Source of the DNA: Balneolaceae bacterium
GTDB lineage: Bacteria > Bacteroidota > Rhodothermia > Balneolales > Balneolaceae
NCBI GenBank assembly: GCA_006969905.1
Contig: CP030887.1
Coordinates: forward strand, 496,001-560,000
Length of the DNA: 64,000 nt
Reading direction: 5' to 3'
Positions 24,771-46,110 of the stretch are shown piece by piece. Under the pieces are notes generated by a model that saw only the letters and a list, made by a program, of their open reading frames with translations, was not told the DNA's origin and did no database searches. Each line of letters begins with the position of its first letter. Position 1 is the stretch's first letter. The position numbers and the translations under genes are program-made.

Positions 24771-24905
24771 GCTTAAAGATAAGCCAGATTCTTAATAAAG
24801 CACAGAAGTTTTAGTCCCAATCATGCTAATAGAATACGTTGATTACGCTTTTCTCTGAACTAAGTGGTATCTTTTCACGTTCTGAGACATAACCAAATAC
24901 TATCA

Positions 24906-25445: not shown

Positions 25446-25463
25446 CAAACTATTTATTACAAA

Positions 25464-29853: not shown

Positions 29854-30639
29854 TTGAAAAAATACTTTCTATCCCTTGTATCTAACTTTAAAAACGAAAA
29901 TCTCTATCTAGAAGAATGGCTGGATTACCATCTGAATGCTGGTATCGATCATTTCTATTTATATAATCAATGTGGTTCTCCTGAAGCCGATCAAATTCTG
30001 GCACCTTATGTAGCTAAAGGCGTTGTAACCGTTCATGACTGGACAGATTTCAGTAAAAAATATGAGGGGCCTACTTTTTTCTTTCAAAAAAACCGGAATC
30101 ACATGGGCTACACACATGCAGCTACGCATTATAGAAGCGATACCACATGGCTTTTGAAAATTGATGTTGATGAATTTTTATTCATGGCTGATGAACAAGA
30201 AAGCATCAAATCCTGGTTGAAAAAAGTTAATACCAAGAAAGTAAAAACGATACGGGTACCCAGAATAGATTTTGGAAGTAACGGATACAAACAGCTACCC
30301 TCTGGCGGTGTGCTTGAGAATTTTACCAGAAGGGAGGCGACCCCTTCCAATTACAAAGATATGGCCAATACTGATTTCCTCGACAACAATAATCGCTGCA
30401 ATTCTTCACATCGTTGGTCGTATAAGCTCTTTTCAAGTGGGGCAGTCTTAGAGCCAACCACAGCTAATGAACTTAGAATCAATCATTATTACACAAAATC
30501 GAAAGAGGAATATTTTAACCGACAAAATATCAGCAGGGGGCGTAAAGTAAGTGATGAAGACTTTAAACGTATAGAGGAGCGTACTAATGCTGTTGAGGAT
30601 AAATCCATCTTACAACACCTTCCCCTCGCTAAAATCTAA
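29854..30639 (+). CDS. Glycosyltransferase family 92-like protein (TTG start)
   Basis: This 261-residue protein matches GT92/DUF23: FKNENLYLEEWLDYHLNAGI, FYLYNQCGSPEAD, and the DxD site WLLKIDVDEFLFM near residue 105-115. The RGRK segment lies near the C-terminus. The family start requires the TTG at 29854, since stops lie immediately upstream and the next ATG would remove the conserved first strand. It is a retaining or inverting sugar transferase of unknown donor. Its stop overlaps the stop of the convergent Stealth gene. It marks the left edge of the phosphonate/polysaccharide locus. Confidence 0.8.
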   Translation: MKKYFLSLVSNFKNENLYLEEWLDYHLNAGIDHFYLYNQCGSPEADQILAPYVAKGVVTVHDWTDFSKKYEGPTFFFQKNRNHMGYTHAATHYRSDTTWLLKIDVDEFLFMADEQESIKSWLKKVNTKKVKTIRVPRIDFGSNGYKQLPSGGVLENFTRREATPSNYKDMANTDFLDNNNRCNSSHRWSYKLFSSGAVLEPTTANELRINHYYTKSKEEYFNRQNISRGRKVSDEDFKRIEERTNAVEDKSILQHLPLAKI

Positions 30640-31526
30640 AGCTCGAAAGTGGACGGCGTCGGATATTTTTCATCCAAAAATTCTTTCATCATTGCCACAA
30701 TCCCGGGGTTTGGATTATCTCCCATGTCGTCATTAATGCAGTATGAAATCGGGGTTTTGCGTTTCATCTTTTCAAAAAAACGAGCTTGTTTTTCAGGCTT
30801 GTTGGTCAGCCTCCTGAATCGGGAAATCCTTAAAGCCTCAGTAATAAATACCGGGTCTGAAAGCCTGTTCTGATATTCAAGCATATAGTACCTGTATAAT
30901 TTTAACGGGCAAAAATTCGTCCTGTCTCTAAACCTGCACTTCCTGGTTTTTTCTGTTTTTTCCGGGAATAATTCAAAAGCCTTCTCCCAAAAAAACTTAT
31001 TAATCAAAATGGGGTGATGTTCGATTAGCCCCAATCCAATTATATCGTTATAACCATCATAAACTCTCCATCTCAGGTTCTCTCCAAAAAAAGTGTTGTA
31101 CACCCTGTAGCGGGAATCTTTATAAAACATCTCAAACGGAACCGGTGCTCCAAACAGAAAATCATCATTCATATATATAAAGTTTTCACTCAGCCCCGGG
31201 ATTCGGTGCAGAAAACTTTCTATTACATTTGAATTGAATGTGGGCAAATACTCAGACGGGATTATTTCATCATGATGAACAAGAGAAATGTGTTTGTGGT
31301 TAATATCCAGCCACTCCGGAACCTGGGGCCTGACTGTAACCAAATAAATATGACTGAATGAGTTTAGGTAAGCTTCTAATGATCGTAAACTGTACCTTAA
31401 AAGCTCAAAATCGTCCCTGTAGCGCTCGGGATTTATATCTTTTTTTACTTTTGCGTATGAATTGCGAGTTTTTATGTAATCGGGGTCCGCACCGTTAACC
31501 CAGGTATATACCACATCAAATTTCAT
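30636..31526 (-). CDS. Stealth-family sugar-phosphate transferase
   Basis: This 296-residue protein has the conserved Stealth regions in order: CR1 DVVYTWVNGADPDY at residues 4-17; CR2 from RDDFELLRYSLRSLEAYL to NSNVIESFLHRIPGLSENFIYMNDD; CR3 around VYDGYNDIIGLGLIEHHP; CR4 with INDDMGDNP near the end. Stealth proteins transfer hexose-1-phosphate (not just the sugar) and build phosphodiester-linked capsule polymers. This suits a locus full of nucleotidyl- and phosphotransferases. Its start is only 11 bp from the divergent licD-like start, so promoters must lie inside neighbouring coding sequence. Confidence 0.88.
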   Translation of the reverse strand: MKFDVVYTWVNGADPDYIKTRNSYAKVKKDINPERYRDDFELLRYSLRSLEAYLNSFSHIYLVTVRPQVPEWLDINHKHISLVHHDEIIPSEYLPTFNSNVIESFLHRIPGLSENFIYMNDDFLFGAPVPFEMFYKDSRYRVYNTFFGENLRWRVYDGYNDIIGLGLIEHHPILINKFFWEKAFELFPEKTEKTRKCRFRDRTNFCPLKLYRYYMLEYQNRLSDPVFITEALRISRFRRLTNKPEKQARFFEKMKRKTPISYCINDDMGDNPNPGIVAMMKEFLDEKYPTPSTFEL

Positions 31527-31537
31527 TAGCCCGCTTC

Positions 31538-32143
31538 ATGGAAAAAAAGTTATCGCGATTTATTTCTTATCACTTTCGAAGAGTGAAAGAATATACTCAA
31601 AGATATGCTCATACAAGAATGAATAGAAGTGGTATCCGCAATGAAATTCTGTGGGAGCTATTCGAACTATCTAATGAGTTCCTTAGGAAACTAGACATTG
31701 ATTACTGGGTAAATTACGGAACCTTACTCGGATTTTACCGCGAAAAGGACATTATCGGGCACGATTTAGATATCGATTTCGGGTGCGATGAAAAGTTCTA
31801 TTCTTTTATCCTGGAAAACCGGGACAAACTCCCTCCTGAGTTGGAGATTTTTGATACAAGCTTTAAACACTCAGGCCCTAAGCTATATGTAAGCTATAAA
31901 GGTTTTGATGCAGATATTTATTTTTATCGCACTGAAGAAGATCAATTGTACAGCTATGAAAAAACGGATTGGGATAACTATAATGCCCCGATCCCTGAAG
32001 AGTATGTATTTCCAACTCAAAAATTAACCATCCGTGGCATAGAAACCTGTATACCTGCCAATCCCAAAGATTATTTAAAGACTATTTATGGCAGCCTGGA
32101 AAAAAATGCTGTACGAAATCCCGATACAGGATATTGGGAATAA
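31538..32143 (+). CDS. LicD-family phosphotransferase
   Basis: This 201-residue protein of the LicD (nucleotidyltransferase-fold) family has the signature YWVNYGTLLGFYREKDIIGH followed by DLDIDFGCDE (about residues 57-85). LicD transfers phosphocholine from CDP-choline to surface glycans. In a locus that should make 2-aminoethylphosphonate, a CMP-AEP donor is a reasonable alternative. The acceptor is probably the glycan built by the adjacent Stealth, GT4 and GT92 proteins. The first about 45 residues are basic. It is convergent with the LicC-like gene, 7 bp apart. Confidence 0.85.
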   Translation: MEKKLSRFISYHFRRVKEYTQRYAHTRMNRSGIRNEILWELFELSNEFLRKLDIDYWVNYGTLLGFYREKDIIGHDLDIDFGCDEKFYSFILENRDKLPPELEIFDTSFKHSGPKLYVSYKGFDADIYFYRTEEDQLYSYEKTDWDNYNAPIPEEYVFPTQKLTIRGIETCIPANPKDYLKTIYGSLEKNAVRNPDTGYWE

Positions 32144-32150
32144 AAGCTTT

Positions 32151-32876
32151 TTATTTCTTTATGCCCGGCAATACCTCCTGAACCGCATATTCCAGATGTA
32201 TTTCATTGTCGATCTCACACCAACTCAAGTCCGGTTGATGATCAATAAGGATAGGTTCTTCTTCTGAAGAATAGCGCGCCAGCATAATCTCGTAATCTTC
32301 ACTATAATCGATTTCAATATCCCGGCAATAGCCTGAAAAACGCTGTAACAACCCTTTTGACAATCTCCAGATTCCGGTCATCACCCCTTCCGGGTTTTCT
32401 TCTCCTTTTTGCTTACTGAGCTGAACCAGCTTACCCTCAACTGAGCTGTAGTACACATTGTCATCCAAATCTAAAGGAGCAGAAGTAATAATTAAGTTCT
32501 TATCCCCTTCTTCTTTGTTCAATTTTTTAAAAACAGCAGGATCATACAGGATATCCCCTTCCAAAAGGTAAAAAGTATCTGTAACCAGATTTTCAAACAT
32601 CAGGAAAGTGTAAATGCTGGCTTTGGTATCGTAAAAGGAATTCTCAACAAGCTTTACCTCCTTGTACTTTTCTTCGAGGTAATGGAATTCTTCAATAAGG
32701 TGCCCGCACCCAATCAGGATTTGTTGAACTCCGGCATTCACCAAAGCCTGAATCGACCATTCCACAAGTGGAAGTCCATCAATCGGTACAAGCGGCTTAG
32801 GAACAAGATCGCCTGTCACGCTCTTCAATCGAGTTCCCTTTCCCGCAGCAAGTATAACAGCTGTTTTCGGGTTCAT
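32151..32876 (-). CDS. LicC-like nucleotidyltransferase (candidate CTP:2-aminoethylphosphonate cytidylyltransferase)
   Basis: This 241-residue GT-A-like NTP transferase has the nucleotide loop LAAGKGTRLKSVTGDLVPKPLV at 9-30. Further blocks are YDTKASIYTF near 104-113, YLLEGDILYD and CEIDNEIHLEYA at the end, as in choline-phosphate cytidylyltransferases (LicC) and the related PntC enzymes that form CMP-AEP. The AEP-synthesis genes in the same locus make CMP-AEP the best guess; CDP-choline or an NDP-sugar is possible. The ATG overlaps the stop of the GT4 gene by 4 bp (same strand), implying coupled translation. Confidence 0.85.
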   Translation of the reverse strand: MNPKTAVILAAGKGTRLKSVTGDLVPKPLVPIDGLPLVEWSIQALVNAGVQQILIGCGHLIEEFHYLEEKYKEVKLVENSFYDTKASIYTFLMFENLVTDTFYLLEGDILYDPAVFKKLNKEEGDKNLIITSAPLDLDDNVYYSSVEGKLVQLSKQKGEENPEGVMTGIWRLSKGLLQRFSGYCRDIEIDYSEDYEIMLARYSSEEEPILIDHQPDLSWCEIDNEIHLEYAVQEVLPGIKK

Positions 32877-34027
32877 TGCTTTTCCTTGTAATACACCTCT
32901 TCTACCCTATCAGCAATTTTTTTCCAATCATGCTCTTCTGCAATCTTAACACCTTTTTCAATAAGGTGATCCGATTTCTCCGGGTTCAGGACATGACCTT
33001 TAAGCACCTTTAACAGTTTATCTTTATTCCCGGGAGAAGGAAAATTCTCCGGGCCGTACTCAGAAACCACTTTCAGGTATCCCGGATTTCCGTAGCCTGC
33101 TACTTTCAGTTTATGTGCCATAGCTTCAAGAAGAATTATTCCAAAACTTTCACCGTATAAAGACGGGGCTACCAATAAATCAGCTTTTGTCATCCATTCA
33201 ACTTTATCCGCTTCATTGGTTTCATGAATAAAGCTGACATTATTCAGGTTATTTTTTTGAATATAGGACTGCGCCTTGTTCTTGTAAGGCCCATCCCCTA
33301 AAATAAGGAGGCTTATTTTTTTGTCATTAACTTCCTTTTCAAGTTTGGCATACACTTCCAATAAATCCATCAGGCCTTTACGTTCTTCAAATCTACCCAC
33401 AAAAATAAGCCTGAACTCTTCTCCATTATTGGGGTTATTACTCCTCCTGACCTTCTCCGGATGTGAATGAACCCCATTGGGGATGATTTGAAAATTTGCA
33501 AGGTCATTATTGTCTGCAACACCCATAGACCTGGCCTGGATCTTAGAAACTGAAATAATCTCATCCACTTTAGGGAAGTAATATTTTGCAGACAGCTTCA
33601 ACAAACTACCGGCTACAAATTTACCAAAGCCCCTGTCTGGCGGGGTATCATGGCATGTAATGACCTTCTTTACATCCGGCTCAAGCATATCCAAAACCTG
33701 CTTGGGTAAAGCCGGGCTCCATATCGTATGAAAGTGGGCTATATCAGGGGCAAATTCTTTAAGGGTTTTTCCCAGGTCTTTTTTTGCAACAGGTCGCAGA
33801 TAAGAAAGATCGGCTGTTGTTCCCCAAAAAAGCTTTATCCTGGTTACCTCCGCGGCATCAATTAGTTTACAGTCGAAGTTATTTTCAAAATCTGAATTGG
33901 TTATTTTTGGGGCCAATACCAATACATTGTGATTTTTTTTAACCAGCTCATTACTTAAATGTGTAATATGATTTTGCACCCCTCCGGGTTTTGACAAATC
34001 ATAAGGGCAAACCTGAATGATATTCAT
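32873..34027 (-). CDS. Glycosyltransferase family 4
   Basis: This 384-residue GT-B enzyme has the N-terminal PYDLSKPGGVQNHITHLSNEL acceptor-side motif, the mid-protein IFVGRFEERKGLMDLLEVY, and the donor-site E-x7-E region LLVAPSLYGESFGIILLEAMAHKLKVAGYGNPG near 288-320. Close relatives include phosphatidylinositol mannosyltransferase-like and capsule GTs acting at the inner face of the membrane. Sugar donor unknown. It is coupled to the LicC-like gene downstream. Its start is 20 bp from the divergent PLD-like gene. Confidence 0.9.
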   Translation of the reverse strand: MNIIQVCPYDLSKPGGVQNHITHLSNELVKKNHNVLVLAPKITNSDFENNFDCKLIDAAEVTRIKLFWGTTADLSYLRPVAKKDLGKTLKEFAPDIAHFHTIWSPALPKQVLDMLEPDVKKVITCHDTPPDRGFGKFVAGSLLKLSAKYYFPKVDEIISVSKIQARSMGVADNNDLANFQIIPNGVHSHPEKVRRSNNPNNGEEFRLIFVGRFEERKGLMDLLEVYAKLEKEVNDKKISLLILGDGPYKNKAQSYIQKNNLNNVSFIHETNEADKVEWMTKADLLVAPSLYGESFGIILLEAMAHKLKVAGYGNPGYLKVVSEYGPENFPSPGNKDKLLKVLKGHVLNPEKSDHLIEKGVKIAEEHDWKKIADRVEEVYYKEKQ

Positions 34028-34047
34028 TGTAAATATGCAGTACTTAT

Positions 34048-35037
34048 ATGTCTGAGGATTTTACTTCCAGTTCCGCAATTGTTTTTTCGAACAGCCAGGA
34101 TTTCTTTAATCAATTAACCATTGACATTCAAAATGCCCGTAATTCAATCTATATACAGTGCATGAGTTTTGAAGCTGACCAAGTCGGCTCCAAACTTATT
34201 GAATTGCTCATCCATAAGCCAAATATCAATTGTACTTTATTGATTGATTCTTACTCAAAGTATGTAGTTAATGACGTATTCCTGTTAAGTCCTCAGGGAT
34301 TGTTTAATAAGAGAGATGCTTTACAGGAAAGGCGTGCACTTTCCCCGCTTTTGAAAAAAGCCCGTAACGCAGGTATCAACATTTCATTTACTGCCCAGAT
34401 GGGATTTTTACTTCATAAATACCCGGTAAGAAATCATAAAAAAATGATTCTCATTGATGAGGATATCTCTTACCTGGGAGGGATGAATTTCACAGAGCAT
34501 AATTTTCTTTGGAGTGATTTGATGATCAGGCATACCCAGACTTCCCTGAACAAAGCGCTGAAAAATTCTTTTATGGATGATCTGAGTGGTAATATTACTG
34601 CCCCGATAGAATACATTGATGATCAAAACACGCTTTTTTTCCTGAATGGGCTTAAAACCAGGGCTGCATGGTCTGAACTTTTATCGATGATAGCCAGTGC
34701 AAAAAAGGTTGTCGCCATATCCCCGTATATTTCTTATCCTATGCTCGATGCAATTTCGAGAGTGGCTGACAATAAAGTTATCACACCGACTAACAACAAT
34801 AAGCCTTATGTTAAATTGATACATAACTTAAAGCGGTACAGGAATATTAACTTCATGGAGGCTGATGGAAATATGTTGCACATGAAAGTGCTCATACTTA
34901 ATGATGAAGCGGTAGTTTACGGGTCAGCAAATTTTGATACTATCAGTTACCTGTTTGAAAAAGAAGTGGTTTTAAAAAGAAAAGATCAGCAGTTGGTGCA
35001 GCAACTGAATGCTATAGCAAATAACTTAATTAATTAA
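34048..35037 (+). CDS. Phospholipase D-like protein with two HKD motifs
   Basis: This 329-residue protein of the PLD/cardiolipin-synthase superfamily has a first HKD motif HKKMILIDEDISYLGGMNF (residues about 131-149) and a second HMKVLILNDEAVVYGSANFD (about 277-296). In the second motif asparagine stands where the usual HxK-x4-D aspartate is, with aspartate next to it. There is no signal peptide. Such enzymes transfer or hydrolyse phosphatidyl groups. In this locus it might exchange a headgroup on a phosphono- or phospholipid, but that is inference. The CDP-alcohol phosphatidyltransferase gene follows 8 bp downstream. Confidence 0.82.
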   Translation: MSEDFTSSSAIVFSNSQDFFNQLTIDIQNARNSIYIQCMSFEADQVGSKLIELLIHKPNINCTLLIDSYSKYVVNDVFLLSPQGLFNKRDALQERRALSPLLKKARNAGINISFTAQMGFLLHKYPVRNHKKMILIDEDISYLGGMNFTEHNFLWSDLMIRHTQTSLNKALKNSFMDDLSGNITAPIEYIDDQNTLFFLNGLKTRAAWSELLSMIASAKKVVAISPYISYPMLDAISRVADNKVITPTNNNKPYVKLIHNLKRYRNINFMEADGNMLHMKVLILNDEAVVYGSANFDTISYLFEKEVVLKRKDQQLVQQLNAIANNLIN

Positions 35038-35045
35038 GCATATAC

Positions 35046-35996
35046 ATGTTTTCAGGTCCTTTTTTTGCTGATTACGACAAATCTATCAAGAATAAGATTG
35101 TTGAAGAAGGTTATGATCTGGTATTCAGCCGCCCACTGGGTTTTGTTATTGCAAAAGTACTTTCAAAAATAGGGCTCACTCCTACAAACATTTCTGTCCT
35201 GGGAATGCTCATCGGGGTTTCCGGTGGGGTTATGCTTTACTGGCAAGATTCCCTTCTATTCACTTCTGTAGGAGGTTTACTTGTAATTATTGCCGGGGTT
35301 TTTGACAGTGCAGACGGTCAGGCAGCCCGTTTATACAATACCCATACAGAAATGGGCAGATACCTTGATATGTTTAATGACATGTTGGTTTTCATTAGCT
35401 GTTATACAGCAGGATTGCACTTCTTTTGGGATCAATATACATGGGCAGGAGTTTATGGTTTGGGCCTTGCTTCAGGTTATGTGCACAGCTTAAAATCCAA
35501 TATCTATGAGTTCTATAAAGGTGAATTTCTTCATTTTTCGTTAACCGACTCAAAACAACGAAATGATACTGTTGAATATATAAAAGAGAACTTTGACCGT
35601 ACTTCTACCATAACCCGTAGAGTTACTTACCCGATTCTCATCGACTACGTCAAAAAACAGAACAAATATAAATTCCGAAGCGATGAAACCACCCAAATTT
35701 TTGAAGAAGCCCGGGCCAAGCGACCTGAAGAATTTAAAGAAATCTATATAGAACACTGTCGCAGAATGCTTGCCGGATGGGCTTGGGTTTGCGGTTCAAA
35801 TGTGATGCGTAATTCGATTATTGTATCCAGTCTGTTTGGGAGAATAGATATCTACGTAATCGCAAATATCCTTTCTTATGGCTTATTTCTTTGGATAGGC
35901 AAGAAGCAGAATAAAATTGACGAAGAAATACTGACGGTTATTAAGGATTGGGAACTTACTTCTTTTGAAGCAGCGTCCGAACCATTACAGAAGTAA
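35046..35996 (+). CDS. CDP-alcohol phosphatidyltransferase family membrane enzyme
   Basis: This 316-residue membrane protein contains the complete family motif D-G-x2-A-R-x8-G-x3-D-x3-D as DGQAARLYNTHTEMGRYLDMFND (about residues 97-119). Further helices lie on either side and there is an extra soluble insert (about 155-240). The family joins a CMP-activated compound to an alcohol. With CMP-AEP as donor it could make AEP-diacylglycerol or another phosphonolipid; a conventional phospholipid product is the alternative. It is co-directional with the PLD-like gene and overlaps the end of the convergent MMPL gene by 41 bp. Confidence 0.87.
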   Translation: MFSGPFFADYDKSIKNKIVEEGYDLVFSRPLGFVIAKVLSKIGLTPTNISVLGMLIGVSGGVMLYWQDSLLFTSVGGLLVIIAGVFDSADGQAARLYNTHTEMGRYLDMFNDMLVFISCYTAGLHFFWDQYTWAGVYGLGLASGYVHSLKSNIYEFYKGEFLHFSLTDSKQRNDTVEYIKENFDRTSTITRRVTYPILIDYVKKQNKYKFRSDETTQIFEEARAKRPEEFKEIYIEHCRRMLAGWAWVCGSNVMRNSIIVSSLFGRIDIYVIANILSYGLFLWIGKKQNKIDEEILTVIKDWELTSFEAASEPLQK

Positions 35997-38352
35997 ACAA
36001 GGTAGCCGCTAAGGTTGTAGTTATTCCTGTAATTGCCAGAACCCCGATTGATTCCATTCCCGGATGATTAATAAATAACAGCCCGATAAAACCCAGTATA
36101 GTTGTAAACGAACAGGCTGCCAATACCGGGAACTTCTGAGAAACAAAATAATCGAAAAACCGGTCTTTCTTTGAAGTCATAGTATCCACCAGGTGGATAC
36201 CGTTATCTGCCCCCACACCAATTATGATCGGAAATACTATCACGTTGTAAAGGTTGATATCAAATTCGAAAAAGGACCGGATGGAAAGTAACAATCCAAA
36301 AGTAAGTACCAGCGGGGTAACAGCCAGTAAAGATTTAACAAAAGACCGGTAGTAGATAAGCAATAAAAGAATGATAGTGACTAAAGGGGTAACGAAAAGG
36401 AATGTTGATTCACTGATCAGCAACTCAAGAATGCTTGAAGCTATGATATAGGTACTTGCTGCGTAAAAAGTTTTGCCTGATTCGATTTGGATGGCACCGG
36501 AGCTTTTCCTGAACTGTATACCGACTTCACCATCTGCCAGTACTTTAGCCGGATACATCACTACCAAAGGAGCGATAGTTCCATCATTAAAGAAAAAACG
36601 ATTTTTAATATAGTCCGGCAATGTTTCAATGGTTGGGGGAACCGTATTCCGGGCAATCTCGATATATTCAGCAGCCTCTTCGTTTATACTTCCCAGAAAC
36701 TCTTCATTATCGTTTATCAGCTGTTTTAAGTCCTCGATCTTTGCGCTTTTTGCAGCTTTCAGTTCTTTGGTTGATGGATACCTTGCCGAGAAAGATTCAA
36801 CCCGTTCTATATCCGGATAGGCAGTACCGGTTCTTTCTGATAAATACTCGAAAAGAACTTTTGATTCCTGAATGTCATCCGCAATAAAGTAGGACGGATC
36901 ATTATATCTCTTTCCACTGCTTACTTTTGAAGAAAATTCCTTGAACTCTGTTTTCTCTGATTTAGGCTCCAGGTCGGAAAAATCAAAATTAAAGCTTAAG
37001 GATCGAACCCCAAAAAAAGTACCTGCCAGGATCACGGCAATGAAAAAGATAATGCCGGAAATCCTTTGCTTTCTTGGAACAGAAGCTATTTTTACCAGCT
37101 TTGAAAAAAGTGTTTGTTCTTCTCCGGGTCCATTGTGTTCCTGTTTCCCCCGGGAAGGAGACAGAAGTAAAAACAGGTAGGTGGAACCCAGGTTTACTAC
37201 GATGTTGATGAAGAAAATGATCCCGAACTGTATGAAGCCTTCAAAATCCGCATAAATGAGGCTCATGATTGCTAATCCTGTTGTAAGGCAGCTGAGAAGT
37301 ATTGGTTTGGTTGACGACAGGTATGACTTAGCAATTTCAAAAGCCGATGAACCGGCAAGTATGTTGCTCTTATTAACAGAGTACAAATGAAGGATATAAT
37401 CAAGATTAATCCCAAAAAGGATGCTGAATATGATCCCTGTGAAAACATTTATCTCGACGAACAAAAATGTGGAAAGCCCTAAAGAAATAATAAAACCGGA
37501 GAATAAAACGAAAAATACCAAACCGAGGTCAGCAAGAATAAAGCGGTATTTATAACTGGTGTGTCGATTAATAAAAAGCATATACCCGATCAGAAAAAGG
37601 ATAAGGCTGATAATACCAATCACTAACGCTTTGGCCACCGAATACTTAATGTCATTGATCTTATCAAAGTGGCTCACATAAGAACCGCCCCAAAACAACT
37701 GCACATCATTATACTCTGCTTCTATATTCGCTTTCTCAGCCAATAACAATGTATACGCTCTTTCCAGCTTGTTGAAATCACTTTTTGGAAAGGCAACCAG
37801 GAAACGGATGCTGATTACCGTACTGTCCTCGTTAATGGAATATCTTTTTGCGCGGGCAACCTCCTCCAGCAATACAGAGCTGTTCGAACCTATATCTAAT
37901 TCGGGTGATCTGCCCTCAAGCTCAACATAGAAAGGGCTGGCCTCCATCTTTTTCTCATCTATATACCCGGAAACCTTAGCATACAAACTGTCCAGTTCAT
38001 TTGCTGTCATTAGGTACAAAGCGGAGTTCCTGATATCATAAAGATCATTTTCCAGCTCTGCACTTCTGAAAATGTTTTCACCGTCAAGCCGGAGTTTCAA
38101 CAGGCCGGAAGTAATTTCTTTGGATCTCGCTATAACACTTTCATTGGTAAGTGAACTTATCACGAGGTCAAAACCACCCTCGCTCGAGTTCAGCCGTTCC
38201 AGTTTTTTATAGCTTGCCAGGTGATTGTTATCAGCTGGAAGAAGCGCAATAAGTTCCCCGTTAAACTGAAGGTCCAGGCTCCGGTTCAGCAGGAACGCAA
38301 ACGACACCCCATAAAAAACTATAAGTACAACAAGTAGTCTTTTTGGCTTCAT
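35956..38352 (-). CDS. MMPL/RND-superfamily exporter
   Basis: This 798-residue protein has the two-fold RND layout. One N-terminal helix, a periplasmic domain (about 30-235) and five helices (about 237-400, with GINLDYILHLYSV) come first. The second half repeats the plan (helix at about 425; final helices about 655-795, with GVGADNGIHLVD). MMPL/HpnN-like proteins export lipids and glycolipids using the proton gradient. It lies directly downstream of the AEP genes on the same strand (42-bp gap), so it is the likely exporter of the phosphonate-bearing product. The N-terminus resembles an uncleaved signal anchor. Confidence 0.85.
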   Translation of the reverse strand: MKPKRLLVVLIVFYGVSFAFLLNRSLDLQFNGELIALLPADNNHLASYKKLERLNSSEGGFDLVISSLTNESVIARSKEITSGLLKLRLDGENIFRSAELENDLYDIRNSALYLMTANELDSLYAKVSGYIDEKKMEASPFYVELEGRSPELDIGSNSSVLLEEVARAKRYSINEDSTVISIRFLVAFPKSDFNKLERAYTLLLAEKANIEAEYNDVQLFWGGSYVSHFDKINDIKYSVAKALVIGIISLILFLIGYMLFINRHTSYKYRFILADLGLVFFVLFSGFIISLGLSTFLFVEINVFTGIIFSILFGINLDYILHLYSVNKSNILAGSSAFEIAKSYLSSTKPILLSCLTTGLAIMSLIYADFEGFIQFGIIFFINIVVNLGSTYLFLLLSPSRGKQEHNGPGEEQTLFSKLVKIASVPRKQRISGIIFFIAVILAGTFFGVRSLSFNFDFSDLEPKSEKTEFKEFSSKVSSGKRYNDPSYFIADDIQESKVLFEYLSERTGTAYPDIERVESFSARYPSTKELKAAKSAKIEDLKQLINDNEEFLGSINEEAAEYIEIARNTVPPTIETLPDYIKNRFFFNDGTIAPLVVMYPAKVLADGEVGIQFRKSSGAIQIESGKTFYAASTYIIASSILELLISESTFLFVTPLVTIILLLLIYYRSFVKSLLAVTPLVLTFGLLLSIRSFFEFDINLYNVIVFPIIIGVGADNGIHLVDTMTSKKDRFFDYFVSQKFPVLAACSFTTILGFIGLLFINHPGMESIGVLAITGITTTLAATLFTSVMVRTLLQKK

Positions 38353-38394
38353 AAGTATCGGGGACTAAACGGGATGATCTGGCCGGTTAACATT

Positions 38395-39492
38395 TCAAGC
38401 CTTTAAATATTCTCTTACTACAGATATCACCCGCTCCATATCTTCAGTATATAAATCACCGATTACCGCCATCCTGAAGGTTTTACTCTCGGGAATCACC
38501 CCCGGATACACGGTGATATTCCGCTCGAAGAGATAATCATGAAAATGATCAAATCCATGGGACAGTTTTTCATCCAGCTTAATAGCCATCAGGATTTTGG
38601 ACTGTTGCTCCATTGGGAGATAAAAACTGAATCCAAGCTCATTCATTCCCTGGTACAACACTTCCCAATTTGACTGGTAACGTTTCCATCTTGCAGGTAC
38701 TGTTTCGGCCAGGGTTTCTTCTATCGCCTGTTTGAAAGCATAACAGATTTGGACTGGCGGAGTGAATCTCAACTGGTTTTTCTCTTTCAGGTAGCTCCAC
38801 TGCTTGTACATATCGAAATAAAAATTGCCGGAGCTTTTCTTTAATTCCGAAATCAGGTCTTTACGGAAAATCACGAAAGACAACCCGGCCATCCCATGAA
38901 TACATTTGTTTGAAGAAGCTGCGAGGTACCCGATGTTAAGTTTCTGCAGATCGACAGGGCAGGCTCCATACGAACTCATGGCATCCACCATCAATGTTAC
39001 CCCGAGTTCATCACAGCAAGCCGCAATTTCTTCCAGGGGATTCATCATCCCCGTAGAAGTTTCATGATGGATCATAGCCAGGTGAGAAAAACCACCATTC
39101 CGTAAACGCTTTTTGATCAATCCGACATCCGGAAAATTCCCGAATTCATGAATGGATTCGTATGGCAGATGGTACGATTCACAAATTTGCTTCATCCGGA
39201 TTCCATACGCCCCGTTTGTTATGATCAATACTTTGGAAGAAGCACTTAGTGCAGAGCTTAGCATGGCTTCCATCGCACCGGTACCACTCGCAGAAAACAG
39301 GCAAGCTTCGTAAGCATCTCCACCGTTTCCGATTTTGATCAGCCCCTCCACAATTTCGGTCATCAGGTCTCCGAACTCCTCCTCTCGCGGACAAATATCG
39401 TTGACCACCAAAGCTTCTTTTACCGCTTTCGATGTAGTTCCCGGCCCGGGATTCAGTAATATCTTGCGTTCCAGCTCTTTCATCTCAATCAT
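38395..39492 (-). CDS. aepZ: 2-aminoethylphosphonate-pyruvate transaminase-like aminotransferase
   Basis: This 365-residue class-V aminotransferase has LLNPGPGTTSKAVKEAL at the start, CLFSASGTGAMEAMLSS for cofactor phosphate binding, MVDAMSSYGACPVDL, and the PLP lysine in AASSNKCIHGMAGLSFVIF. This is the pattern of PhnW/AepZ. Here it would run in the synthetic direction, making 2-aminoethylphosphonate from phosphonoacetaldehyde. Its start overlaps the end of aepY by 8 bp (or an ATG at 39483 avoids this). The third gene of a tight aepX-aepY-aepZ operon. Confidence 0.9.
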   Translation of the reverse strand: MIEMKELERKILLNPGPGTTSKAVKEALVVNDICPREEEFGDLMTEIVEGLIKIGNGGDAYEACLFSASGTGAMEAMLSSALSASSKVLIITNGAYGIRMKQICESYHLPYESIHEFGNFPDVGLIKKRLRNGGFSHLAMIHHETSTGMMNPLEEIAACCDELGVTLMVDAMSSYGACPVDLQKLNIGYLAASSNKCIHGMAGLSFVIFRKDLISELKKSSGNFYFDMYKQWSYLKEKNQLRFTPPVQICYAFKQAIEETLAETVPARWKRYQSNWEVLYQGMNELGFSFYLPMEQQSKILMAIKLDEKLSHGFDHFHDYLFERNITVYPGVIPESKTFRMAVIGDLYTEDMERVISVVREYLKA

Positions 39493-40612
39493 CCTCCCTG
39501 AGGAATTTCATAAAATCACTTTTGTTATCCACGGGAGCTATAGTGGGCCGTCCCAGATCGGACCTGGCCCCAAGCTGTGTCCTGATTTCGAGTAACACCG
39601 GGCCTTCCTGTTCCATGAAATCACCAACTATTGCATTAAGCGACTCTTTGTTTTCTGCACAAAATGCTTTCCTGTACCCACAGGCTTCCGCAATCTTTCC
39701 AAAATCAATACTGAAACCGGCAGTAGGCTGGCCGCCCACCGACTCATGCGCACCGTTATTGATAACAATATGTTTAAAGTTCTCAGGCTTTTGCTCTCCG
39801 ATAATTGCAAGTCCGCCCATGTGCATTATAACCGAGCCGTCCCCGTCAATACAAAAAACCCTTCGCTTCTTTTTTTCAAGAGCAATACCCAGGGCAATCT
39901 GGGAAGCATGCCCCATACTGCCCACCGTTAAAAAGTCCTGGTGATGAGGCTGCCCATACTTTGCGCGAAGTTCAAAAAGCTCCCTTGAGGTTTTTCCCGT
40001 AGTAGAAACAATTACATCTTTCTCTCCGAATTTCTGAACCAGCAGCTCCAAAACCTCTTCTCTTTTAAGCGGGTACTTTTTTTCGGTTGAAACAGCCTGG
40101 AGTTCGTAATTCCCGAAAGTACCGGACGGCACCAACAGTGCATAAGGTGAGGAGTTTTCCCTCATCACATCGAACGCTTTACTTATCTGGTTTGCTGCTT
40201 CACCTTCTTCACTGCTCAGAATTGTGTATGGAATACCCAACGCCCGGAGCTGCGCTTCCTGTGTACGCCCCTGCTTGATGTGTTGCGGTTCATCCTTAAC
40301 TCCGGGTTGTCCTCTCCAGCCAATCATAAGGAGCATTGGGATAGCATATACCTCTTCGTCTGCCAGCGAGGTAAGGGGATTTACCATATTCCCGAAACCG
40401 GAGTTCTGTAAATAAACCAGGGGAATTTTACCGGATGCCAGGTGATATCCGCTCGCAATAGCTAAAGCACCACCCTCGTTGGCTGCAATTAACTCGTTAC
40501 CCTGATCGAAAGCATAGGAGCCGAAATTTTTGAGCAGCGAATCGGGTACACCCGGCATAAACTCCACCCCATGGTCTTCCAGTAGTTTATATATGAATGC
40601 AGGGCGCAGCAT
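39485..40612 (-). CDS. aepY: Phosphonopyruvate decarboxylase
   Basis: This 375-residue thiamine-diphosphate enzyme fuses an N-terminal pyrimidine-binding part (GVEFMPGVPDSLLKNFGSYA; AANEGGALAIASGYHLASGK) with a C-terminal diphosphate part (CIDGDGSVIMHMGGLAIIGE, a GDG-x-N-like motif). It also has NNGAHESVGGQPTAGFSIDF, all characteristic of Ppd/AepY. It decarboxylates phosphonopyruvate to phosphonoacetaldehyde, which pulls the unfavourable PEP mutase reaction forward. Five bases separate it from aepX, so transcription is surely shared. Confidence 0.93.
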   Translation of the reverse strand: MLRPAFIYKLLEDHGVEFMPGVPDSLLKNFGSYAFDQGNELIAANEGGALAIASGYHLASGKIPLVYLQNSGFGNMVNPLTSLADEEVYAIPMLLMIGWRGQPGVKDEPQHIKQGRTQEAQLRALGIPYTILSSEEGEAANQISKAFDVMRENSSPYALLVPSGTFGNYELQAVSTEKKYPLKREEVLELLVQKFGEKDVIVSTTGKTSRELFELRAKYGQPHHQDFLTVGSMGHASQIALGIALEKKKRRVFCIDGDGSVIMHMGGLAIIGEQKPENFKHIVINNGAHESVGGQPTAGFSIDFGKIAEACGYRKAFCAENKESLNAIVGDFMEQEGPVLLEIRTQLGARSDLGRPTIAPVDNKSDFMKFLREDD

Positions 40613-40617
40613 AGAAA

Positions 40618-41910
40618 TCAGTTGGGAAGTATTTCGAGGATATCCTTAATGGACATGCAATATTCATCTGCTTCCAGGGAGCGTTTGTTCGCCAAAATGG
40701 AAGTAGCTGTTTTTTGCATCGCCGGAAAAGCACTTCGCAATAAGTGATTGGCATAAATCACCACGTTGAAGCCGGCTGCCTTGAGCTCATCTTCCGTGAA
40801 TTTATTGTAGGATGAAGGAACCGAAATAGCCGGAACCTTATACTCAAATCTCTGGTACTCTTTCATGAATTCAAGAATGTCTTTTCCGTCTTTGTAGCGG
40901 CTGTGGATCATGATACCATCTGCTCCGGCTTCGATGTAGGCTTTGGCTCTTTTCAGCGCATCCTCCATCCCCACATTAGCGATCAGGCTTTCGATCCTGG
41001 CAATAATCATAAAGTCCCGGGTCATTTGGGCTTTTTTACCCATCGAGATCTTATGGCAGAAGGTGTCAATGTCTTCCAGTTCCTGGTTTACCTCCGTCCC
41101 GAATAGCGAATTTCTTTTTAAGCCCGACTTATCTTCGATAATGACTGCGGAAACCCCGAGGCGTTCCATATTTCTCACCATCAACTCGAAATGCTCCGTA
41201 AGGCCTCCGGTATCTCCATCCAGGATAATAGGTTTAGTAGTCACTTCCAGGATGTCATTGATCGTCTGGATCCTGGAGGTGCGATCCACATATTCCGTAT
41301 CCGGTTTACCTTTGGCGGTTGAATCGGTAAGGCTGCTCACCCATATCGCATCAAACTCCCTGAGTTCGCCTTCGGCTTCAATTTGAGTTTCTTCCACAAT
41401 AAGGCTTGAAATCCCGTTATGTGCCTCCAGAACCCTGACTATAGGCTTGGCGGCAATCAGCCTTCTTAACAATCTCCGCCTGATATCAGGGGTAGTACCA
41501 ATTTCGCGCATGGCATTTTTAAGCCCTGATGAGGAAATACCTTCGGTATAATCGGGTTCAATAAGCTCGCCTCCCCATTCACTTAAAATGCGAATCACCT
41601 TATCCCGGATGTGCTTCTGAGGACCTACTTTCCAATCTGTACCGTGCACCACATAATCCGGCTTTAGTGCCCGCAGGTTTTCCTCATAATCCAGGCTGGA
41701 TTGCAAAACCACTTTCTCTACCCCTTTTATATTCTCCAGTATCTGCTTGCGTTCTTCATACTCTAAAAAAGGAATCCTGCTGAATTTGGTAACGGCCGCA
41801 TCCGAAAGCAATCCTACGGTAACCTGACCCAATTCCCTGGCCTTTTCAATAATATTAATATGGCCATGATGGATAAGATCGGTCCCCATCCCTACGTACA
41901 CTGTTTTCAT
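40618..41910 (-). CDS. aepX: PEP mutase with N-terminal cytidylyltransferase-like domain
   Basis: This 430-residue fusion has at residues 1-135 a nucleotidyltransferase fold (YVGMGTDLIHHGHINIIEKA with the HxGH site; HGTDWKVG; EGISSSGLK). Residues about 150-430 form phosphoenolpyruvate mutase: LDGDTGG for metal binding, the catalytic loop IIEDKSGLKRNSLFG, and MIIARIESLIANVG. The mutase converts PEP to phosphonopyruvate, forming the C-P bond and committing to phosphonate synthesis. The fused domain may activate AEP or another phosphonate with CTP. It heads the aepXYZ operon; its promoter should lie in 41911-42137. Confidence 0.93.
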   Translation of the reverse strand: MKTVYVGMGTDLIHHGHINIIEKARELGQVTVGLLSDAAVTKFSRIPFLEYEERKQILENIKGVEKVVLQSSLDYEENLRALKPDYVVHGTDWKVGPQKHIRDKVIRILSEWGGELIEPDYTEGISSSGLKNAMREIGTTPDIRRRLLRRLIAAKPIVRVLEAHNGISSLIVEETQIEAEGELREFDAIWVSSLTDSTAKGKPDTEYVDRTSRIQTINDILEVTTKPIILDGDTGGLTEHFELMVRNMERLGVSAVIIEDKSGLKRNSLFGTEVNQELEDIDTFCHKISMGKKAQMTRDFMIIARIESLIANVGMEDALKRAKAYIEAGADGIMIHSRYKDGKDILEFMKEYQRFEYKVPAISVPSSYNKFTEDELKAAGFNVVIYANHLLRSAFPAMQKTATSILANKRSLEADEYCMSIKDILEILPN

Positions 41911-42137: not shown

Positions 42138-42211
42138 GCACCCGTAGCTCAACTGGATAGAGTACCTGACTACGAATCAGGCGGTTAGAGGTTCGAATCC
42201 TCTCGGGTGTA
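42138..42211 (+). tRNA. tRNA-Arg (anticodon ACG)
   Basis: A 74-nt cloverleaf. Acceptor arms gcacccg (42138-42144) and cgggtgt (42204-42210) pair with one G-U at the end. The D-loop contains agctcaactggatagagt. The anticodon stem-loop is ctgac-tACGaat-cag-like. The T arm has gaggttcgaatcctc. CCA is not encoded. A terminator hairpin follows at 42223. The AT-rich ABC/pentapeptide block lies directly downstream. Confidence 0.95.
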
Positions 42212-42222
42212 CATGAAATGTA

Positions 42223-42342: not shown

Positions 42343-43080
42343 TTATTTCGAAATATCGTGAAAAAGATCCATTAGTTTATTCATTTCAATAGTAACGTCT
42401 TCTCCATATCTAATCCCACGAATATTCTCAGGAACTGTTTTAGTTTCTATTATTTTCATTGGTCTAGAACTAGTTATATAAATTTTATTTCCAAAGTATA
42501 ACGCATCCTTTAAACTATGAGAAACAATTACAGTTGTAATTTTTGATGACTCAATTTTTTTAAATACCCATTTTGAAATTCTTTCCCTTTGAATATGGTC
42601 TATATTTCTAAATGGTTCATCCATTAATAGTAACTTAGGTGGATCTACGAATACTCGGGCTAGACCTAGCCTACTAAGCTCTCCTCCAGAAAGTTGACTG
42701 ACCCAAGATTTAGATTGGCCTTGCAACTCAAAAATATCAAGAAGTTCTTGAATTATTTTATGTCCTTTTGTTTTATCAATTCTTGATGGAAGTACCATTC
42801 TAAGTGCCTCATTTACTTTTAACCACTCAGGAATTCTGTCATTCTGAAAAACTATTTGTATTTCTCTACTTGGGTTTTCGGTAATAGTACTATGTATAGA
42901 AACTTGAGTCTCTAAATTTGGATTAATTTGAGCAATAGATTCCAATAAACTAGTCTTACCAGCTCCACTAGGGCCTAGAATAGTAGCTACATCTCCAATC
43001 TGGAGATGTAACTCTATAGGTCCAATTCCAATGACTTCATCTTTATCGATTGATTGTTCTTCAAGTTTTACCTGAATCAT
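42343..43080 (-). CDS. ABC transporter ATP-binding protein (SsuB/NrtD/TauB type)
   Basis: This 245-residue ATPase has Walker A GPSGAGKTSLLESIA near 36-50, Q-loop IVFQNDRIPEWLKV, signature LSGGELSRLGLARV, Walker B LLLMDEPFRNID and H-loop VIVSHSLKDAL. It belongs to the group that drives import of sulfonates, taurine, nitrate or thiamine precursors. It is the last gene of a four-gene unit with the permease (15-bp gap) and binding protein. The DNA is visibly AT-richer than the genes on either side. Confidence 0.88.
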   Translation of the reverse strand: MIQVKLEEQSIDKDEVIGIGPIELHLQIGDVATILGPSGAGKTSLLESIAQINPNLETQVSIHSTITENPSREIQIVFQNDRIPEWLKVNEALRMVLPSRIDKTKGHKIIQELLDIFELQGQSKSWVSQLSGGELSRLGLARVFVDPPKLLLMDEPFRNIDHIQRERISKWVFKKIESSKITTVIVSHSLKDALYFGNKIYITSSRPMKIIETKTVPENIRGIRYGEDVTIEMNKLMDLFHDISK

Positions 43081-43095
43081 AACAAATAGTTTAAA

Positions 43096-43893
43096 TTAAA
43101 AAGCCCTTGTAGTTCTCAATAACCTTTTATCAATTCTTCCCCTTATTGATATAAATAATAGATCCAGTAAATATGCTAAAAGCGCTAATAGAATAAGTCC
43201 TGCAAAAGCATCTTCTATTCGGCCCAATGATTGCTGGTACTTAATGAAAAAAGCTAGCCCACTTTCACTTGGAATTTCAGAACCAAACTCAACAAGAAAA
43301 AGTACAATCCAACCTATAATGACTGCTACCCTTAATGCTGTAAGTACTTCTGGAAGTACTCGCGGTAAATACAAAAAACGCAGTCTTTTCAAAAATGATA
43401 AACCATAGATATCTGCAATACCAGAGTACTCATTCCTAACAGAGCTTGTAGCCGAAAAAGTGTACATATGTACAAGTAAAAAGGTCGCTAAAGACACCAA
43501 AGAAATTTGAAAATACTCACCCACCCCAAAAATTAAGATTGCAAATGGAATCCATACCACAACTGGAATTGGTGCAAAAAAAGCAATTGTAGGGTTTATA
43601 AGTATCTCAACTTTTTTAAACCTAGCAGCAATTGAACCAGAAAAAATACCAAAAACCATTCCAACTAAAACACCTAAAATTAATCTTCGGAGACTTGAAA
43701 AAGAAAATGGAATTATAGCTTCTTCAATAATTAGCTCAGAGATCACTGGAAAAACCATACTAGGTGGGGCTAATTGAGTTCTAGGAAAAACCTCGAAACG
43801 AAAAAATAACTCCCATATTACTAATATAAATACCGGAAGTAATAGACTGATTAAAAATTTCCTAATTCGATTTATATACTTTCTTTTTATCAT
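43096..43893 (-). CDS. ABC transporter permease (SsuC/NrtB/TauC type)
   Basis: This 265-residue membrane protein has about six helices. The BPD_transp_1 EAA loop is present around FLKRLRFLYLPRVLPEVLTALRVAVIIGW (residues about 160-190), and the N-terminus resembles SsuC (LPVFILVIWELFFRF). It pairs with the adjacent ATPase and periplasmic lipoprotein to import an unidentified small anion or organic compound. Its ATG overlaps the stop of the binding-protein gene by 4 bp. Confidence 0.87.
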   Translation of the reverse strand: MIKRKYINRIRKFLISLLLPVFILVIWELFFRFEVFPRTQLAPPSMVFPVISELIIEEAIIPFSFSSLRRLILGVLVGMVFGIFSGSIAARFKKVEILINPTIAFFAPIPVVVWIPFAILIFGVGEYFQISLVSLATFLLVHMYTFSATSSVRNEYSGIADIYGLSFLKRLRFLYLPRVLPEVLTALRVAVIIGWIVLFLVEFGSEIPSESGLAFFIKYQQSLGRIEDAFAGLILLALLAYLLDLLFISIRGRIDKRLLRTTRAF

Positions 43894-44870
43894 TTAGATA
43901 ATGGCTCTGAACCACCGTAGGCAGCATTTATTAAATTGTCCGCGAAGTCTGATGGAGTACCTCTACGTAGCATATCATTTCTTTCTAAAAATGGTATTTT
44001 ATTATCAATATCTTCTTTAAAACTATTATCTAAACGACTACCCCAGTCATGCTTTCCCCAAGCTAATTCGACAACTGAGGGATCTAAGCTTAATTTTCTA
44101 GCAACTATCACCTGAGCATCTTCTGGATGTTCCATTATCCAAACTTTAGCACGCCTTAGCACAGATGCAACTGCCCTCACAATGTCTGGATTTTGGGATT
44201 CTAAATTCTCAGAAACGGCAGCAACACTTTGTATAACTTGATCTCCTCCTCTAACGGGTACCCCCTTTTCTTCAATCACTTGTTCTTCAACAAAAGGAGG
44301 CCATATAGCCCATCCGTCAATGTCTCCCCTCTCAAATGCTGGTTGAGCAATACCAGGCTCCATAAAATTTAACTCGATTTGATCACTCGAAATTCCTGCT
44401 TGTTCAAGAGCTTTAAGCAATCCATAATGTGAACTAGTGCCTTGAAGTACGGCAATTCTAAGACCCCTTAAATCAGATACAGAACTAACTCCTAGATTTG
44501 GTTTTACTAAAATTTCCTGCTGCAAAGTAGCGCTTAATTCAAAAATACTAAGATCTACACCTCTGGCTTTAGTCACCGCAACGGGAGGTGCTGCGGCAAA
44601 TAAAAACTGAAGATCACCTGAATCAAAAGCTCCAGTAATACTTTGCAGATTATCGTATTCTCTAAAAACTACTGAATCGACAATACTACTTAACTCCTCT
44701 TCAATCCATCCAAAATGTTGAGCGATATAAAAAGGAGAATAATCTATTGCACTTGAAAATGTTCCAAATGCAACTATTTTTTTAGTATTACGACTATCTT
44801 TTTGATTACAAGCACTAGCAAAAACAAGTACTATTAGTGATAATATTTTTAGGTTGATTTGTTTACACAT
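43890..44870 (-). CDS. SsuA/NrtA-like substrate-binding lipoprotein
   Basis: This 326-residue protein has a lipoprotein signal peptide (ILSLIVLVFASACNQ, cysteine near 21), followed by an NMT1/SsuA-type binding fold: AIDYSPFYIAQHFGWIEEEL, LFAAAPPVAVTKARG, LRGLRIAVLQGTSSHYGLLKAL, and DGWAIWPPFVEEQVI. It captures the substrate for the importer encoded next to it. The ligand is unknown; sulfonates and nitrate-like ions are typical for the family, and a phosphonate is conceivable given the neighbouring locus but unsupported by motif. Confidence 0.87.
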   Translation of the reverse strand: MCKQINLKILSLIVLVFASACNQKDSRNTKKIVAFGTFSSAIDYSPFYIAQHFGWIEEELSSIVDSVVFREYDNLQSITGAFDSGDLQFLFAAAPPVAVTKARGVDLSIFELSATLQQEILVKPNLGVSSVSDLRGLRIAVLQGTSSHYGLLKALEQAGISSDQIELNFMEPGIAQPAFERGDIDGWAIWPPFVEEQVIEEKGVPVRGGDQVIQSVAAVSENLESQNPDIVRAVASVLRRAKVWIMEHPEDAQVIVARKLSLDPSVVELAWGKHDWGSRLDNSFKEDIDNKIPFLERNDMLRRGTPSDFADNLINAAYGGSEPLSK

Positions 44871-44889
44871 TTGTCTAGTTGATTAATAT

Positions 44890-46071: not shown

Positions 46072-46110
46072 ATGCCGAAACCGAAAGTATTTGAGCTTAA
46101 TAAACAACAA

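Follow-up and report, generated by a model that had tools for sequence, protein, structure and literature searches.

A conserved Balneolaceae locus joins genes for 2-aminoethylphosphonate synthesis to an otherwise inositol-linked lipid module

The window analysed here is a 64,000-nucleotide stretch of a Balneolaceae bacterium (GenBank assembly GCA_006969905.1, contig CP030887.1, positions 496,001 to 560,000), and its positions 29854–41910 hold an eleven-gene locus in which genes for the synthesis of 2-aminoethylphosphonate (AEP) are combined with those for cell-surface and lipid-type transferases. Comparative genomics links the AEP genes of this locus with a lipid module, a LicD-family transferase and a Stealth protein. 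The reading we favour, to which we assign a probability of about one half, is that the product of the locus is a surface glycan decorated with AEP and attached to an inositol-type lipid anchor, LicD being the main AEP transferase. Open reading frames were mapped mechanically, and families were assigned with Pfam, TIGR and NF models and their curated cut-offs. All eleven genes named in the original prediction are intact open reading frames and each exceeds a family cut-off, which bears out its description of a complete aepX-aepY-aepZ set beside surface and lipid genes.

The aepX, aepY, aepZ and MMPL genes lie on one strand and probably constitute an operon, while the remaining genes of the locus alternate in strand. 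AepX (40618–41910, reverse strand) consists of a Fom1-like cytidylyltransferase domain (residues 1 to about 140) fused to a phosphoenolpyruvate (PEP) mutase domain (residues 148–429). The mutase domain reaches 404.5 bits with TIGR02320 (cut-off 319.6), and the motifs HHGH (of the form HxGH), ISSSGLK and EDKSGLKRNS, the last corresponding to the EDKxxxxxNS of PEP mutases, are intact; by homology, AepX is predicted to make phosphonopyruvate. The N-terminal domain belongs to PF01467, with the Fom1 domain (5X3D, E 2.7e-50) as its top hit among solved structures. AepY, the putative phosphonopyruvate decarboxylase (39485–40612, reverse strand), scores 470 bits with TIGR03297 (cut-off 312.5), and AepZ, the putative AEP aminotransferase (38395–39492, reverse strand), 374.5 bits with TIGR03301 (cut-off 360.8); the best solved match of AepZ is the aminotransferase domain of Treponema denticola 6PD1 (E 2.9e-84). 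The source genome, a single contig of 3.49 Mb, contains one PEP-mutase-family (PF13714) match. A role of AEP as a substrate for PhnX breakdown was rejected, the best match in the same genome scoring 23 bits against a cut-off of 220 in a search that covered PhnX alone among the AEP breakdown routes. The AepX proteins of the window, of four other genomes of the family (G035, G029, G026 and G022) and of locus L024 in a Flammeovirgaceae metagenome-assembled genome (G540) form one clade with a support of 100/100. Their HHGH motif occurs elsewhere only in G064 and L036, 16 of the 29 other aligned rows having HPGH, and the GLK or GLR that follows ISS/T-S/T is unique to these six among the 35 rows.

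Other relatives of AepX show a variety of domain arrangements. The fusion proteins of Treponema and its relatives (L029, L030, L032–L035, L037 and L038) have a cytidylyltransferase domain without HxGH in all eight rows. A stand-alone Fom1-like cytidylyltransferase of 148 residues without a PEP mutase domain, 57% identical to AepX residues 1–141, is found in L041 (uncultured) and L042 (a planctomycete contig). In L046 (G109), two AepX homologues lie near each other, one of them below the PEP-mutase cut-off and without EDKxxxxxNS, and a Woesearchaeota archaeon contig (L025) encodes a PEP-mutase fusion that is 62% identical to AepX, with an AepY homologue adjoining.

The gene at 32151–32876 (reverse strand; NTP_transf_3, 49 bits) had been described as LicC-like. 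It does encode a nucleotidyltransferase, but this is a PntC, a predicted CTP:AEP cytidylyltransferase: T. denticola PntC (6PD1, E 1.3e-31) is the top hit among solved structures, ahead of LicC (1JYK, E 2.3e-14). Residues R16, K27, E106, K155 and E196 correspond to R15, K25, E104, K153 and E196 of the T. denticola enzyme, and the five positions are also kept in G035, G029, G026 and L024, even though the L024 protein is only 33% identical. According to the published account of PntC, in the parts used here, Glu104 and Glu196 lie near the amine of AEP and are replaced by Asp in LicC, and activity falls below 10% when Arg15, Lys25 or Lys153 is changed (Rice et al. 2019, PMC6697681). A LicC or phosphocholine role was rejected on the basis of the better PntC match and of Glu at both choline-site positions. 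Both AEP-site glutamates are missing in all three inositol-type nucleotidyltransferases that were aligned, and both are present in the nucleotidyltransferase near AepX in G105. Because the PntC AEP-site residues are kept in the window protein and its relatives, CMP-AEP is predicted to be an intermediate at the locus. With aepXYZ above their cut-offs and the PntC residues conserved, the AEP half would thus follow the published Pnt logic. The start of L069, also in G105, encodes a 738-residue protein with a PntC domain and the AEP-site residues, adjoining a 725-residue protein that matches AepY.

The same gene content and arrangement are seen in four further genomes of the family, so the locus is not a chance array. 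PEP-mutase neighbourhoods were examined in all 16 of the 128 genomes of the order that score above the cut-off, and a scan of genome contigs yielded 21 loci; several neighbourhoods in each set lie on short contigs. Genes were labelled by their best BLAST match to the window proteins (E 1e-4). The order Stealth-PntC-GT4-PLD-CDPOH-MMPL-AepZ-AepY-AepX, where PLD denotes a phospholipase D-like protein and CDPOH a CDP-alcohol phosphotransferase, is the same in the window, G035, G029, G026 and G022. As G022 and G026 are near-identical, the four other genomes represent three independent lineages. LicD lies inside four of the five intact loci, GT92 is near in two, and the MMPL gene adjoins aepZ in each of the four outside the window. 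The proposal that AEP synthesis and surface transferases form one locus is borne out by this conservation, and so is the expected co-occurrence of its two halves; one of the 21 scanned loci, L024 of G540, carries the same gene set in rearranged order. No MMPL gene was found in the 40 kb read around the G540 locus, and in the other 11 PEP-mutase genomes of the order no CDPOH match was obtained genome-wide at E 1e-20. Missing genes are uninformative on the short contigs of G044 (6.5 and 6.3 kb), G115 (7.8 kb), G118 (11 kb) and G084 (3.4 kb), and the assemblies of G106 and G087 are 82% and 86% complete.

A decaying copy of the locus is seen in G023 (L122), in which GT92 is in two pieces, GT4 is reduced to 139 residues and AepZ has 324. 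AepX, LicD and Stealth are missing from this genome, and neither AepY nor PntC was found in the 20 kb read; PLD, CDPOH (302 residues) and MMPL are still open.

The lipid module comprises the PLD/cardiolipin-synthase-like protein (34048–35037, forward strand; PF13091 PLDc_2, 85.8 bits), which may act in lipid headgroup or phosphatidyl transfer, and the CDPOH protein (35046–35996, forward strand; PF01066 CDP-OH_P_transf, 40.9 bits), which retains a complete DGxxARx8Gx3Dx3D motif. PLD adjoins CDPOH in nine of ten loci, and in G540 one gene, a desaturase, lies between them. An alignment-based query built from the window CDPOH protein detected it in 9 of the 128 genomes of the order. Three score bands of CDP-alcohol transferases recur in 18 of 18 genomes tested, and the source genome has one such enzyme in addition to them; these three housekeeping enzymes were separated by score band rather than by a tree. 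The association of the lipid genes with AEP is not exclusive, for they also occur as an inositol-linked module in genomes without a PEP mutase. Neither G104 nor G106 has a PEP mutase match; in both, GT4, PLD and CDPOH are clustered with a myo-inositol-1-phosphate synthase (MIPS; PF01658 above cut-off) and a nucleotidyltransferase, and the module of G104 also includes an MMPL protein. The best model for the nucleotidyltransferases is NF041135, an inositol-1-phosphate cytidylyltransferase fusion (109 bits in G104 and 108 in G106, far below the cut-off of 580), and the best solved match of the G104 protein is the CTP:inositol-1-phosphate cytidylyltransferase 2XME (3e-15). MIPS is present in all nine genomes with CDPOH versus 18 of the 119 without it (p 2.5e-7). 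This Fisher test, like the others reported here, is one-sided and treats genomes as independent; a single test at genus level, uncorrected for ancestry beyond the genus, gave p 2.8e-4 for the same association. Some more distant CDPOH homologues, in the class and the phylum, also lie beside MIPS. In a tree of CDPOH proteins, the window family groups with the MIPS-linked proteins of G104, G106 and G540 (100/99).

AdoHcy hydrolase and redoxin genes at window positions 24864–26771 are separated from GT92 by about 3 kb that includes a met-zincin gene; in G104 and G106 (L124 and L125), such genes likewise lie near the lipid module in its inositol-linked form. This hints at a shared ancestral chromosomal site for the window locus and the G104/G106 module. 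No such genes were observed next to the locus in G035, G029, G026 or G022; no empty insertion site was found in sister genomes, where the met-zincin search gave only matches of 28–38% identity.

AEP and inositol genes are joined physically in G540. A 27-kb run (306.7–334.2 kb) unites AEP, inositol, serine palmitoyltransferase (SPT) and sphingolipid-desaturase genes, and its MIPS gene lies on the same 602-kb contig as the AEP locus, about 8.5 kb from CDPOH. The run begins with MIPS, an inositol-type nucleotidyltransferase, SPT, an epimerase, a GNAT protein, an SDR protein and a FabA-like protein. Two ketosynthases follow, then a short protein that resembles an acyl carrier protein (no Pfam match), CDPOH and a sphingolipid delta-4 desaturase (PF08557). 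Next are PLD, GT4, AepZ, AepY, AepX, PntC, PhyH, LicD, Stealth and GT92, and the run ends with an ABC exporter, a Wzi-like protein and a phosphopantetheinyl transferase; a few unassigned open reading frames occur along it. The SPT scores 606 bits with NF047600 (cut-off 640), and among solved structures it matches SPTs best (1.9e-135). For two activated donors, the cluster offers a single CDP-alcohol transferase and a single LicD in the 40 kb read. This gene content supports a predicted inositol-phosphate lipid with an AEP-carrying glycan.

LicD (31538–32143, forward strand; PF04991, 40.4 bits, cut-off 22.6) contains the blocks GTLLG..RE, HD[LI]D[IV]D and D[IV]YFY, which we take to be the metal-site motifs and which are present in all five aligned homologues. 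PF04991 was detected in all five intact-locus genomes versus none of seven others tested, among them G104 and G106, where the lipid module occurs without a PEP mutase. LicD is a probable AEP transferase to a glycan, and it is placed here as the main one because it tracks AEP in this manner. The idea that LicD always lies inside the locus was weakened, the gene being unlinked in G035. In that genome, a fusion of NTP_transf_3 and Aminotran_1_2 domains (L215, 8046–10435) adjoins the LicD gene, whose product is 43% identical to that of the window; the pair is probably another cassette for a CDP-activated headgroup.

Three glycosyl- or sugar-phosphate transferases accompany LicD. The putative Stealth sugar-1-phosphate transferase (30636–31526, reverse strand) passes the cut-offs of CR1, CR2 (119 bits) and CR4, CR3 scoring 16.2 bits against 24.2, and its solved matches are GNPTAB (7S6N, E 4.7e-34) and CpsY (8J2N, E 2.2e-23). 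Stealth occurs in 48 of the 128 genomes of the order and both Stealth and PEP mutase in 12; it is thus carried by 12 of the 16 genomes with a PEP mutase above cut-off versus 36 of the 112 without (p 0.0014). A view of Stealth as an AEP-specific gene was rejected given its presence in so many genomes. The GT4 gene (32873–34027, reverse strand; PF00534, 101 bits) is divergent to PLD and of full length in eight of ten loci, the others being the shortened gene of G023 and the locus of G087, from which it is absent. GT92 (29854–30639, forward strand; PF01697, 77 bits) is an optional part, also found in G029 and G540 and missing from the loci of G035, G026 and G022. The MMPL/RND-type membrane protein (35956–38352, reverse strand; PF03176, 30.2 bits, above cut-off) is HpnN-like (6WU0, E 2.1e-10) and has 12 hydrophobic segments. 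Lipids are the cargo of MMPL-type exporters in the HpnN group, and the protein is a probable exporter of a lipid or glycolipid.

In the mechanism that we propose, AepX, AepY and AepZ would convert phosphoenolpyruvate to AEP, and PntC would use CTP to form CMP-AEP, both steps being assigned by homology. LicD would then move AEP from CMP-AEP to the presumed acceptor, a glycan assembled by GT4, GT92 and Stealth. The lipid that carries the glycan would be made by the CDP-alcohol transferase, from a donor discussed below, together with the PLD-like protein, and the MMPL protein would export the product. The anchor is probably an inositol-phosphate lipid, because the module in relatives adjoins an inositol-phosphate synthase and an inositol-type cytidylyltransferase; it would be fed by MIPS and nucleotidyltransferase genes elsewhere in the chromosome. 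The source genome has such genes outside the locus, namely an inositol-type nucleotidyltransferase and MIPS at G000:C1:2459127-2460449, and MIPS lies elsewhere in the assembly in each of the five intact-locus genomes.

Several observations weigh against this reading. The MIPS gene of the source genome is not adjacent to the locus (about 526–538 kb) but lies about 1.9 Mb away along the contig, and the 18 genomes of the order that have MIPS without this CDPOH include G001, G003 and G004; inositol is therefore also used otherwise. The SPT-like gene of the source genome precedes a gene for a GNAT protein that shares 24% identity with its G540 counterpart; the SPT-like gene is uninformative on AEP because it scores 497 bits against the SPT cut-off of 640 and its group was detected in 15 of the 16 genomes tested, irrespective of AEP. 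The nucleotidyltransferases near AepX in G084, G109, G064 and L025 are without the two glutamates. These residues mark the T. denticola PntC and need not set specificity, which is credited mainly to steric and pocket-space effects in the portions of the PntC study drawn on here (PMC6697681). The same source describes a PF01467 domain fused to 23.6% of PEP mutases in general and the Fom1 cytidylyltransferase as the enzyme that activates hydroxyethylphosphonate in fosfomycin synthesis; the fused domain of AepX may feed another step. The locus of G035 is without LicD. Finally, the active site of CDPOH is altered in the window family, with the motif DGQAAR-Y...D[MAF] in place of DGQ[LI]AR...DG; the alteration is present in 6 of 6 family rows and absent from all 35 others, and these changes may mean an altered donor. 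The rows comprise 32 of the 40 loci L082–L121, the rest having no matching open reading frame of 240–420 residues, and nine chosen sequences; G022 was omitted from both the tree and the motif count as near-identical to G026.

The donor of CDPOH is the main uncertainty, and could be either CDP-inositol, as its ancestry suggests, or CMP-AEP, as the motif changes suggest. Its solved matches do not settle the matter, because they are weak and about equal for AF2299 (4O6M, 2.9e-5) and PIP synthase (6WM5, 7.2e-5), and an AlphaFold model built from two sequences had a mean pLDDT of 51.5 and was not used. Two earlier CDP-alcohol transferase structures, unlike PIP synthase, are reported to suit soluble donors such as CDP-inositol, as stated in the part of the source used here (Clarke et al. 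2015, PMC4634129). A switch from CDP-inositol to CMP-AEP would make the product a direct phosphonolipid, AEP being placed onto diglyceride or ceramide by Kennedy-type logic while LicD and the glycan genes would yield a second AEP conjugate of their own. This was our first idea, which the inositol neighbours demoted and the motif changes partly restored, and we regard it as possible though doubtful. CDPOH shares one locus with PntC and AepXYZ in all five intact family loci, with MIPS elsewhere, and at the G035 locus, where LicD is missing, it is the only local candidate user of CMP-AEP. The residues A93, Y97 and M/A/F109 are common to the six family rows and found in none of the 35 others; with their greater bulk, Y97 and M/F109 would be compatible with a headgroup of smaller size, but residue 109 is Ala in G035 and thus not bulky. 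The HpnN-type match of the MMPL protein also fits lipid export. On the other side, the same CDPOH subfamily lies beside MIPS in G104, G106, G540 and some relatives in the class and phylum, G540 retains the inositol-type motif despite its AEP genes, and G023 keeps CDPOH, PLD and MMPL open with the PEP mutase gone and no AepY or PntC in the segment read.

A lipid-free product is an unlikely explanation. GT4, GT92, Stealth and LicD would in that case make a soluble or capsular phosphonoglycan like the AEP-bearing capsule of Bacteroides fragilis, and CDPOH, PLD and MMPL would be independent neighbours. Stealth and LicD are capsule-type genes, Wzi-like capsule-assembly proteins are encoded near the locus in G035, G026 and G540, and the co-occurrence of Stealth with PEP mutase in the order exceeds chance. 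Yet CDPOH, PLD and MMPL lie within the AEP block in five of five family loci, CDPOH and PLD accompany it even in the rearranged locus of G540, and Pfam scans of the eleven genes revealed neither a polymerase nor a flippase family. A small diffusible phosphonate formed via CMP-phosphonate intermediates of the Fom1-like domain is highly improbable: although this domain is nearest the Fom1 enzyme, such fusions account for almost a quarter of PEP mutases, as noted above, and the rest of the locus consists of surface-type transferases and lipid genes.

Just upstream of aepX lies a tRNA-Arg gene (42138–42212). Beyond it, positions 42343–46110 encode an ABC transporter with an NMT1-type binding protein, which matches a phosphonate-binding family below the cut-off, and a pentapeptide-repeat protein.

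Comparison with known systems separates what is familiar in the locus from what is not. The Pnt pathway, as described in the part of its report considered here (PMC6697681), shares the PEP mutase, with its fused PF01467 domain, the decarboxylase, the AEP transaminase, a PntC-type PF12804 protein with the AEP-site glutamates and a nearby LicD; the window locus differs in the addition of Stealth, GT92, GT4, PLD, a CDP-alcohol transferase and MMPL. The original prediction did not recognise the gene combination as a known system. AEP synthesis with a nucleotidyltransferase and LicD is, however, an instance of the published pathway. No description of AEP genes together with an otherwise inositol-linked lipid module, or with the ceramide genes of G540, turned up in searches of the open-licence PMC literature. 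For the lipid half, the nearest likeness is the alternative inositol-lipid cluster of Bacteroidetes, for which pairs of a nucleotidyltransferase and a CDP-alcohol phosphotransferase are proposed, as yet unconfirmed in the account available to us, to use CDP-inositol for inositol-lipid synthesis (Heaver et al. 2022, PMC9246714). Both systems pair an NTP transferase with a CDP-alcohol phosphotransferase in a Kennedy-type logic, and the window CDPOH subfamily lies beside MIPS in some relatives in the phylum. The window locus differs from that cluster, so far as the source describes it, in that its local nucleotidyltransferase is PntC, MIPS is elsewhere, AEP genes are added, Pfam detects no HAD hydrolase among the eleven genes, and the active-site motif of CDPOH is changed.

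The capsule of Bacteroides fragilis, cited as modified with AEP in the section of the Pnt report used here, is likewise a surface glycan bearing AEP, a likeness of description rather than of sequence, and the material consulted mentions no lipid-transferase module for it (PMC6697681). The closest predicted product type, by analogy, is that of Trypanosoma cruzi, whose glycoinositolphospholipids, in the passages of the sources relied on, carry AEP with the glycan on an inositol-phosphate lipid or ceramide (PMC3738449, PMC7618162); that system is eukaryotic, and the bacterial product is predicted from genes.

Soluble headgroup donors also have a precedent. Work by Jorge and colleagues in 2015 reportedly described a CDP-inositol route to ether inositol phospholipids in Rhodothermus marinus that employs a CDP-alcohol transferase with a soluble donor; AEP is not part of that route, and the likeness is one of enzyme type and not of direct comparison. 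The gene names aepXYZ are presumably shared with the B. fragilis capsule system.

The locus supplies two candidates, LicD and the CDP-alcohol transferase, for the missing transferase after CMP-AEP, and it connects AEP with both a lipid module and an exporter. Tailoring after this intermediate is called unknown in the portion of the Pnt report drawn on (PMC6697681). The genomes also provide a comparison set, with inositol only in G104 and G106, both in one cluster in G540, AEP with MIPS elsewhere in the window family and a decaying copy in G023. A broader proposal, which we offer as speculative and on balance improbable, is that members of the order and the Flammeovirgaceae organism make AEP-bearing glyco-inositolphospholipids, probably ceramide-anchored in the latter, and that the headgroup enzyme of the family may be shifting from inositol to phosphonate. 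Should the product indeed be a glyco-inositolphospholipid, bacteria would have an equivalent of a surface lipid of protozoa, and membrane-bound phosphonate would have a bacterial source.

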